Positions 8,334-10,083 of a stretch of 10,405 nt of DNA are shown piece after piece. The notes below the pieces were generated by a model. It was given only the letters and a program-made list of their open reading frames with translations. It ran no database searches and was not told the DNA's origin. This DNA comes from a bacterium (lineage in GTDB: Bacteria; UBP15; UBA6099; DSWB01): NCBI GenBank assembly GCA_020061125.1, contig JAGUYV010000429.1:1-10405 (forward strand), read 5' to 3'. Every line of letters begins with the position of its first letter. The stretch's first letter is position 1. The position numbers were made by a program, and so were the translations under genes.

Positions 8334-8522
8334 TCCAGCCATCGCGGGATCTGGCGCCGCCGAAAAACTCTTTGTTCAGTCGGCATTTGCCCATGCAAAG
8401 TTCCATGAGCAATATGCAAAACCGCAGGCAAAGAGAAATCCGGGATACTGCGCGCGCTGCAAACTGCGGTCAATACACAGCGCGTTTCTCGATCATTATC
8501 TTGTTTTCGAAATCAACGATGT
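8334..8522. other. Gene-free stretch before the tandem repeats
   Basis: No convincing gene is seen in this stretch. There are scattered GCAAA/TTTGC words, including the small palindrome TTTGCCCATGCAAA near 8384-8397. An open frame of 76 codons on the minus strand (8243-8473) runs through the promoter and looks like chance. The A+T content rises toward the repeats. Confidence 0.4.
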
Positions 8523-8690
8523 TCAACAACTATTCCTTAGTTTAGTTTGTTGTCCAATAATTCGCGTTTCCCTACAATTCCCGCCTAAGTGCATAAAACC
8601 CGCATACTCCGGGTCTTGCTTTCGGGTCCCCCTTAGAAAAGGGGGATCAAGGGGGATGTAACCCATGCTCCGCAAATCTCCCCGCCACCG
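8523..8690 (+). repeat. Tandem 168-bp repeat, copy A
   Basis: This is the first of two direct copies with a 190-base period, 156/168 identical by hand count. The first 50 and the last 67 bases are identical to copy B, and all 12 differences fall in 8573-8623. The 3' part holds the hairpin TCCCCCTT-AGAA-AAGGGGGA followed by TCAAGGGGGAT. On the minus strand this reads as the peptide IPLDPPFLRGT, typical of a dispersed intergenic repeat seen in many genomes. The near-identical 11-mers ATCAACGATGT (8512-8522) and ATCAAGGATGT (8692-8702) flank this copy and could be a target-site duplication. Confidence 0.93.
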
Positions 8691-8712
8691 CATCAAGGAT
8701 GTCAAAGGATGA

Positions 8713-8880
8713 TCAACAACTATTCCTTAGTTTAGTTTGTTGTCCAATAATTCGCGTTTCCCCACAATCCCCACCTATACGCATGAATCCCGCAAACTCC
8801 GGTTTTTGCTTTTGGGTCCCCCTTAGAAAAGGGGGATCAAGGGGGATGTAACCCATGCTCCGCAAATCTCCCCGCCACCG
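8713..8880 (+). repeat. Tandem 168-bp repeat, copy B
   Basis: This is the second direct copy, separated from copy A by 22 bases. It ends 8 bases from the stop codon of the DUF559 gene. Its minus strand stays open in the same frame as copy A, but about seven of the residues encoded by the variable part differ. That argues against a conserved small protein. Confidence 0.93.
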
Positions 8881-8888
8881 CCGTGACA

Positions 8889-9266
8889 CTACCGCGCGTC
8901 GTGGCCCATGCCGCGTTTTTCTTCCACCCACACCTCCAGGGTTTTGAGAACTCCTTCCATGCCTTTTCTCACCTGTTCATCTTCGAACCGGAGCACAGAA
9001 AGGCCCAGGACTTCGAGCGCAGCCTGGCGGGTTGCATCGTAATCGTACCGGTCCCTGTGCGTGGAGCCGTCCACTTCAATCACCAAATCCAGCTCTTTGC
9101 AATAGAAGTCGGCGATGTAATTTCCGATTGGTTTCTGGCGGTGGAACTGGAGGCATAGGAACCAGCGCGCCTTGAGTTTGTTCCAGAGGAGCGCTTCGGC
9201 AAGTGTGCCGCCGCCTCGCAGTTTTCGCGAACGCATCTTGAGATTGGGATTGTAGTAGAGCTTCAT
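8889..9266 (-). CDS. DUF559 (Vsr-like, PD-(D/E)XK) endonuclease-like protein
   Basis: This 125-residue protein matches DUF559 over its whole length: SRKLRGGGTLAEALLWNKL (13-31), FHRQKPIGNYIADFYC (41-56), LVIEVDGSTHRDRYDYD (61-77) and LGLSVLRFEDEQV (87-99). D53 and E64-x-D66 are the likely metal-binding active-site residues, so the nuclease fold seems intact. Related Vsr-type nucleases cut DNA near mismatches, and DUF559 proteins are thought to be nucleases of uncertain role. No Shine-Dalgarno sequence precedes the ATG at 9266, so translation may be weak. The gene is bracketed by repeat copy B on its 3' side and an inverted copy of the repeat core 31 bases before its start. No methyltransferase, integrase or transposase gene is nearby. 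Confidence 0.85.
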   Translation of the reverse strand: MKLYYNPNLKMRSRKLRGGGTLAEALLWNKLKARWFLCLQFHRQKPIGNYIADFYCKELDLVIEVDGSTHRDRYDYDATRQAALEVLGLSVLRFEDEQVRKGMEGVLKTLEVWVEEKRGMGHDAR

Positions 9267-9297
9267 GCGGTCATATTAGGATGGCGAGGGTGGTTTG

Positions 9298-9333
9298 ACA
9301 TCCCCCTTGATCCCCCTTTTCTAAGGGGGACCC
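9298..9333 (-). repeat. Inverted copy of the repeat core
   Basis: These 36 bases are the exact reverse complement of 8624-8659 in copy A and 8814-8849 in copy B, including the CCCCCTT/AAGGGGG hairpin. Similarity stops on both sides, so only the hairpin core is present. Together with copy B it brackets the DUF559 gene with inverted ends. Confidence 0.93.
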
Positions 9334-9433
9334 AGGGCGAGCCGCCCAAGCAGTGCGCGCAAGCAAGCAGGGTATGTAATTTGCGGGCAATGGTTCTTCA
9401 CAGATTGTTTCTCTGTCGGCCCTCTGCTGCAGA

Positions 9434-9525
9434 AATTCGCGATTCCCTAAAACAATACATTAGTTTAGATTGGTGTCCCCATAATTGCATAATTGAATCG
9501 CATAATTGCGTATAATTAGACACCA
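9434..9525. repeat. Diverged, rearranged repeat relic with long imperfect palindrome
   Basis: TTAGTTTAGATTGGTGTCC (9460-9478) resembles TTAGTTTAGTTTGTTGTCC in copies A and B. AATTCGCGATTCCCTA (9434-9449) resembles AATTCGCGTTTCCCTA in copy A, but here it lies before that segment instead of after it. From 9471 to 9525 the arms TGGTGTC and GACACCA enclose four ATAATT words. It may be an old repeat end or a REP-like palindrome. It could also serve as a poor terminator for the gene ending at 9535. Confidence 0.6.
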
Positions 9526-9534
9526 TGGGGGTTT

Positions 9535-10083
9535 TCAATCAGTGACAAAGCAGGTCGTTCTCTTCACATAGTCAGCAGGGTACTCGAATCGATAATCCAC
9601 GCCTGCAATATCGTTTACAACAAGAGCCACGGTTTCGGCATCCTCGTAAAACTCCGCATCCGGGCAGGGGAACGATACGATCATGTATGCACTCTTGATG
9701 AGTTTGCACACATCCGGGCCTACGCTGTGCTCCCCGGCCCTGTAAAATTCGCCCTTGTCGTTTTCAAAAAACGACTGCCCTTCAAGGTCGCAAATGTACG
9801 GCTCCGTGTCCGGCCAGTCAAGGTTTGCCAAATAAACAAAAAAAGAAATTATCGTTGACGCCTTTGTTTTGCCCACGCATTCGCGCACTTGCTCCTCTGT
9901 CCACCGCTTTTTTTCCGCATTGCGCTGGCAGTCGTCCTGCCAGTAATCCGTGTTCATCACATGAGCCACAGCGTAAACTTGATTTCCAGCTACTTCCCGG
10001 CGCTGCGGCTCCTTGTTTTCTTTTCCTATTGCAAGGCAATACACGAAAAGCGCAATCCCTGCAATGATGGCTGATTTTCTCAT
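9535..10083 (-). CDS. Hypothetical exported or membrane-anchored protein
   Basis: I do not recognise this 182-residue protein. Residues 4-19 (SAIIAGIALFVYCLAI) form a signal peptide or single N-terminal anchor. C16 lacks a proper lipobox, so a lipoprotein is unlikely. The rest is acidic and rich in aromatic residues, with six further cysteines (C52, C69, C98, C126, C140, C178), which could form disulfides in the periplasm. A hydrophobic patch at 76-87 is too short to be called a membrane segment. The ATG at 10083 has GGGAGA 8 to 13 bases upstream, which supports a real gene. Its base composition is clearly less GC-rich than the genes left of 8250, and it stands alone between repeats, which suggests acquired DNA. 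Confidence 0.7.
   Translation of the reverse strand: MRKSAIIAGIALFVYCLAIGKENKEPQRREVAGNQVYAVAHVMNTDYWQDDCQRNAEKKRWTEEQVRECVGKTKASTIISFFVYLANLDWPDTEPYICDLEGQSFFENDKGEFYRAGEHSVGPDVCKLIKSAYMIVSFPCPDAEFYEDAETVALVVNDIAGVDYRFEYPADYVKRTTCFVTD

Follow-up and report, generated by a model that had tools for sequence, protein, structure and literature searches.

The 10,405-nt window analyzed here, which is the whole stretch of DNA under study and constitutes the entire contig C14 of the home genome G000 (a 4.1 Mb draft in 513 contigs), probably carries a mobile cassette, in which a DUF559 protein would be the dedicated enzyme of triplex-type (boxC/PIT/TM-like) repeats throughout bacteria, as RAYT is for REP. 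The partnership of gene and repeat spans bacteria, and the window is not a local oddity.

The DUF559 cassette of the window

The DUF559 open reading frame is intact and matches PF04480 with an E value of 1.8e-31 and 108.6 bits, against a curated Pfam cut-off of 20.6. The features of the locus are given below with the analyses that define them.

8515..8691, + strand: first tandem copy, consisting of the cassette end with its hairpin and about 30-40 nt of the 3' flank of the gene, without the gene (92% identical to 8705-8881; alignment with the C34 cassette)
8624..8659, + strand: triplex-type hairpin repeat copy A, within the tandem duplicate of the cassette end (repeat comparison)
8705..8881, + strand: second tandem copy (copy B, 177 nt), adjoining the DUF559 gene on its 3' side (repeat comparison)
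8760..9390, - strand: approximate unit in common with the C34 cassette, extending about 50-60 nt beyond each hairpin (alignment with C34)
8814..8849, + strand: triplex-type hairpin repeat copy B (GGGTCCCCCTTAGAAAAGGGGGATCAAGGGGGATGT), tail toward the 3' end of the gene (repeat comparison, motif finder)
8889..9266, - strand: DUF559 (PF04480) gene, 125 aa, predicted Vsr-fold PD-(D/E)XK nuclease (ORF call, Pfam, AF2 model and fold comparison, dN/dS)
9298..9333, - strand: exact inverted repeat copy upstream of the gene, tail toward the gene start (repeat comparison, motif finder)

The initial annotation had placed the gene between repeat copy B and an exact 36-nt inverted copy, and its coordinates were confirmed: the stop lies 7 bases from the end of tandem copy B, and the ATG at 9266 lies 31 bases from the inverted hairpin copy, which matches copy A over 36 nt and copy B over 37 nt. 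Two hairpins are present on the left side of the cassette, 8515-8691 being the tandem duplicate of the cassette end. No transposase was found in the window cassette among its ORFs and their Pfam matches. As well, a 47-nt sequence (core AACAACTATTCCTTAGTTTAGTTTGTTGTCC) occurs at 8509-8555 and 8699-8745 to the left of the cassette and, in the same orientation, at 9432-9478 to its right, where the copy has diverged (72%); this may reflect a tandem target that was already there or a flank that was duplicated. Elsewhere in the window, ORFs 362-2083 (+, 573 aa) and 9535-10083 (-, 182 aa) gave no Pfam match.

Copies of repeat and cassette in the home genome

The palindrome TCCCCCTTNNNNAAGGGGGA occurs at 24 sites in the 4.1 Mb of G000, where the reversed control pattern has none, and a third G block is present at all 24. 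Three DUF559 genes were counted in this genome, located on C14 (the window), C34 and C363. Contig C34 carries a second complete cassette with the same two inverted hairpins, whose protein is 88% identical to that of the window, and the alignment of the two full cassettes covers the hairpins plus about 50-60 nt beyond each. With a dN/dS of about 0.15 between them, the two DUF559 genes are evidently under purifying selection. A further cassette copy on C303 is interrupted by the contig end, another (C34:13) is truncated about ten bases into the gene, and the third DUF559 gene, on C363, lacks such a repeat. By chance, about 0.005 repeats per gene would be expected within 200 bp. At this rate, a gene would have at least two with a probability of about 1e-5, which rises to 2e-4 when the repeats are restricted to intergenic DNA.

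On seven other contigs of G000 the repeat forms tail-outward pairs spaced about 220-530 nt apart, one of them with an extra copy, and no DUF559 match was found at these seven pairs. These pairs (L021, L022, L023, L025, L027, L029 and L030) mostly have an AGCA loop, and their spacers measure about 200-500 nt. A sequence of about 100 nt is common to the spacers on C71 and C210 and a different one to those on C420 and C455, and therefore further small repeats are nested inside.

A three-block repeat with a triplex code

In the repeat, a pyrimidine arm and a purine arm complementary to it are separated by a loop, and a linker leads to another G-rich arm (the tail), which mirrors the purine arm. 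In the window it reads CCCCCTT-agaa-AAGGGGG-atcaa-GGGGGAT, which conforms to the definition of the intrastrand triplex motif (TM/PIT/BoxC). Stem and tail follow the purine-motif triple-helix code, in which a stem G corresponds to a tail G and a stem A to a tail T or A, as in the combinations of GGAGGGG with GGGGTGG, AGAGGGG with GGGGTGT, AAGGGGG with GGGGGTT or GGGGGAT, and AAAGGGG with GGGGTAT. Full agreement was found at 57 of 64 loci, compared with 19.4 +/- 3.5 (maximum 32 in 20,000) when the tails were shuffled among loci, a permutation that ignores relatedness; the code holds for several distinct stem types found in different phyla. Judged by this covariation, the repeats carry a triplex code. 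The CCCCCTT-AGAA-AAGGGGG core from which the initial annotation started is indeed present but was too narrow, since it represents a single local variant within a much broader class. The conserved and informative part turned out to be the third block (AAGGGGG-ATGT), which that annotation had left unused.

Triplex-type repeats (boxC, PIT, TM) have been known since the 1990s, are common in hundreds of genomes and have been linked to genome instability. According to a previous survey, boxC, PIT and TM_ECO in E. coli and other bacteria have the same three-arm build, and the TM_ECO triplex was formed in vitro, while its formation in vivo was not supported (Holder et al. 2015, PMC4666352). The same study found no mobility activity beside these motifs, and the words DUF, endonuclease and ycjD are absent from its main text (PMC4666352).

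Pairing of DUF559 genes and hairpins across bacteria

Eighty relatives of the window protein, namely those closest to it, were taken from one-per-species genomes with the repeats disregarded in the selection. They represent Bacteroidota, Cloacimonadota, Nitrospirota, Planctomycetota, Zixibacteria, Desulfobacterota, Alphaproteobacteria, Patescibacteria and other groups, and 270 displaced windows on the same contigs served as controls. Inverted repeats were scored between the 350-nt flanks on either side, and the best score was at least 16 at 40/77 DUF559 loci and at 0/270 controls. With a strict finder, the three-block motif was detected within 350 bp of 70 of 73 DUF559 loci versus 10/270 controls (Fisher 7e-58), and tail-inward motifs were present on both sides at 40/73 loci versus 0/270 controls. 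The enrichment of DUF559 genes near such hairpins, which had been proposed from the window, is thus borne out across phyla. Moreover, enzyme and repeat type covary across phyla (protein identity 60.6% vs 54.8%, P ~5e-4).

Related G-tract hairpins flank most of 13 further DUF559 loci, which come from Alphaproteobacteria, Deinococcus, cyanobacteria and others. CGTC REPs were considered as a DUF559 partner and rejected, as these 13 loci showed a single CGTC-like palindrome, which did not adjoin the gene.

The Bacteroidota form of the repeat is present in 14/149 genomes of one class, in which the control pattern was found in 0/149, and reaches 80 copies per genome. All ten genomes with at least two repeats, the centre genome among them, carry DUF559, compared with 81/149 overall; G061, which has five repeats and seemed to be an exception, has, where a contig breaks off, the 3' end of a DUF559 gene within a few nt of a repeat. 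Counted the other way, 9 of 49 DUF559 genes of the census genomes have one exact repeat pattern within 200 bp, with other repeat forms left uncounted. According to the initial annotation, the association would be refuted if the repeat were equally common beside unrelated genes. This is true of single repeats, most of which lie beside unrelated genes, like REPs, but not of tail-inward pairs 150-900 bp apart, which contain DUF559 in 7/7 cases among the matches listed in the Bacteroidota census. The tail-outward pairs among the matches listed contain it in 0/16 cases, and 15 of these 16 are under 150 nt.

Mobility of the cassette

In one alphaproteobacterial genome of 1 Mb, four cassettes that are pairwise 89-98% identical over about 690-840 bp lie in different surroundings. 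These four (L202-L205) also possess long inverted ends, of about 60 nt, outside the hairpins, and they adjoin another repeated sequence (CACTAACCACTAAAAAATCCC plus hairpin). Genome G061 has two elements of 168 nt, 93% identical to each other, with unrelated flanks and with ends at the hairpins. Both retain the start of the gene (MKIYYN), the two hairpins and the bases that precede the far one, while the remainder is missing, and they are internally deleted, MITE-like copies.

The comparison of empty sites that the initial annotation had called for did yield orthologous sites without a cassette, in Pontibacter. At one intergenic site, G116 and G299 carry the cassette and G284 aligns across it; at the same site, another DUF559 cassette is found in two species, and four species have 65-121 nt in place of a cassette. 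Two of these four cassette-less sites hold a single palindrome that resembles a fusion of the second cassette's two outer hairpin arms, and cassette-less sites could be losses rather than pre-insertion sites. At three other orthologous sites (L216/L219, L217/L221 and L218/L220), the cassette, or a different DUF559 cassette, is inverted relative to the conserved flanks, as if it flipped between its inverted ends or reinserted. Going by the multiple cassettes in one genome, the deleted copies and the aligned sites, the cassette unit has been moved or lost, and the earlier proposal of a minimal nuclease cassette with inverted hairpin ends and without a transposase fits this behavior of a mobile unit. 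By eye, no target-site duplication was seen at the alphaproteobacterial, Pontibacter and G061 elements, and no usable empty site was found for the S. meliloti and Azospirillum megaplasmids.

The DUF559 protein

The AF2 model of the window protein has a mean pLDDT of 87, and its fold matches NGO0050 (PDB 3hrl; Z 15.8), I-Bth0305I (PDB 3r3p; Z 11.9) and Vsr (1cw0; Z 10.0); it also resembles Holliday junction resolvases (Z ~7). The match to I-Bth0305I is also found by sequence profile (E 1.4e-4), in agreement with the fold comparison. Residues E24, D53, E64, D66, H70 and D77 are invariant in 38 sequences. The protein is accordingly a predicted Vsr-fold nuclease, which in the model is structurally close to a homing endonuclease. 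Its E. coli relative YcjD has been assigned to the PD-(D/E)XK superfamily (PMC1189080), and the Caulobacter DUF559 protein VsrA was reported to be responsible for the SOS response upon loss of the methylase or methylation (PMC12907096), so at least one DUF559 member acts on DNA in vivo. Membership of a defense system was considered and set aside, as the weak PADLOC match to mREase_II, at 18 bits, stood alone. A link of DUF559 to transposons or to these repeats was not found in the open-licence literature, and it may have been described elsewhere.

Comparison with known systems

The closest parallel is REP-RAYT (REPtrons, REPINs), in which a single enzyme gene is likewise bracketed by inverted short palindromic repeats. 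Similar to REPs, the repeat studied here is also scattered as solitary copies and as short inverted pairs whose tags face outwards (the 16 tail-outward pairs), and the REPtron feature of a dispersed multicopy repeat, often in close inverted pairs, is seen in the 24 sites of G000, the up to 80 copies per genome and the 15 tail-outward pairs under 150 nt. However, the REP-RAYT enzyme is an HUH tyrosine (Y1) transposase, whereas the gene bracketed here encodes a predicted Vsr-fold PD-(D/E)XK DUF559 protein, and the REP tag is GTAG or CGTC, whereas the window repeat has neither and carries a mirror G block (triplex) instead. By analogy, the cassette may work like a REPtron with an unrelated enzyme and repeat; since the HUH enzyme and the GTAG/CGTC tag are missing, it is not filed as a REPtron.

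TM_ECO, PIT and BoxC share with the window repeat the build of a C-arm, a G-arm and a mirror G-arm. No mobility gene was reported for them (PMC4666352), whereas the motif studied here flanks a nuclease gene on both sides in many phyla.

By profile and fold, I-Bth0305I (3r3p) is the nearest solved relative with a described function. Its PDB description is that of a homing endonuclease and mobile intron protein, while DUF559 is here a bare 125-aa domain between hairpins, and no intron or intein was seen at the DUF559 cassettes. Free-standing homing endonuclease elements copy into a cut empty allele; here, cassette-less sites exist and cutting is putative. YcjD (E. coli) and NGO0050 (N. gonorrhoeae, 3hrl) have the same DUF559 family and fold as the window protein, and no assigned function for either was found in the literature covered. 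Finally, a DDE insertion sequence, or a MITE of one, involves a transposase and a target-site duplication; the cassette has no transposase, and no duplication was seen by eye.

Proposed mechanism and alternative explanations

We propose that the repeat would fold into an intrastrand triple helix from its C-arm, its G-arm and the second G-arm mirroring the first. In single-stranded or extruded DNA, such as that of the lagging strand, DUF559 may recognize the folded repeat and nick or cut beside it, after which the host would repair the break by copying from another repeat-ended unit. The host step must be assumed because strand joining is more than a restriction-fold nuclease would be expected to achieve by itself. 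In this way the cassette, its deleted copies and solitary repeats could spread without any transposase. Several observations weigh against this reading, namely the many single repeats next to unrelated genes, the C363 gene with its repeat-less flanks, the count of 9 in 49 for the exact pattern, the failure to see a target-site duplication, the possible origin of cassette-less sites by loss, and the distribution and one-sided position of the repeat in E. coli. We give about even chances to the wider proposal that DUF559 and the triplex repeats form a distinct, domain-wide class of mobile element, in which the nuclease would by itself recognize the triple-helical fold and drive copying through the repair system of the host, and from which boxC, PIT and TM, including those of E. 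coli K-12, derive.

A dedicated nuclease partner would explain the spread of triplex-type repeats, for which the 2015 survey found no adjacent mobility gene, and the orphan family DUF559, including E. coli YcjD, would become a testable mobility enzyme. If the proposal is true, REP-like systems arose with an unrelated enzyme, with the DNA triple helix as a possible recognition mark.

The strongest alternative, which we nevertheless regard as unlikely, is that another enzyme acting in trans, such as a Y1/RAYT-type transposase, or replication slippage mobilizes the hairpins, and that DUF559 is an accessory or passenger gaining from the bracketing, like TnpB/IscB in IS200/IS605-like elements. Hairpin ends and lone accessory nucleases do occur in IS200/IS605 relatives. 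As well, Y1_Tnp was found in 19/22 genomes searched, most of which had been selected for carrying the repeat, and four are present in G000. However, these four all lie on contigs without the repeat, and a RAYT linkage of the repeats was rejected, no Y1 gene coinciding with a repeat among the matches listed. Moreover, G116 has 32 repeats and three DUF559 genes with no Y1 transposase detected, and G101 likewise carries repeats and DUF559 with no detectable Y1_Tnp. The tracking of DUF559 type and repeat type across phyla, and the presence of DUF559 in all tail-inward pairs at gene distance, also speak against movement in trans.

It is improbable, to a greater degree, that DUF559 is a structure-specific repair nuclease which removes or resolves triplex or cruciform repeats, and which lies beside its substrate for regulation rather than as the cause of spread. 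Vsr is a repair nickase, and the fold of the window protein resembles Holliday junction resolvases too. This explanation would also suit the instability of TM loci in E. coli (PMC4666352) and the SOS response caused by VsrA of Caulobacter when methylation is lost (PMC12907096). Against it, duplication, deletion and exchange between sites affect the very units that bear the gene, and the patchy presence of the gene among close species is not the pattern of a housekeeping function. On present evidence, both movement in trans and a repair role are weaker than a mobile cassette with DUF559 as its dedicated enzyme.

That the hairpins, which are G+C-rich and near gene ends, are ordinary bidirectional terminators or insulators typical of small genes is very improbable, given that they also lie upstream of the gene, that the conserved third block covaries with the stem, that the motif is rare at neighboring positions (the 10/270 control windows), and that, according to the review of earlier work in PMC4666352, PIT elements acted neither as promoters nor as terminators in E. 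coli.

ycjD and TM repeats in E. coli

In E. coli, a TM-type sequence is located between the DUF559 gene ycjD and fabI, about 170 nt from ycjD and clearly on one side only. With a 41-nt query of this sequence, the median number of matching places in an E. coli genome was 19; the repeat is present in 5377/5426 genomes and ycjD in 3365/5426. Depending on the lineage, the sapF-fabI interval (L188, L197) is occupied by ycjD or by an oppositely oriented RND efflux operon, and the same swap has been described previously (PMC12817139). The interval was therefore rejected as a clean empty site: the ycjD-less strains examined carry the RND efflux operon, which makes the change a swap and not a simple insertion.

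DUF559 relatives were also observed on two unannotated human gut phage records, MT835749.1 and MT835756.1.
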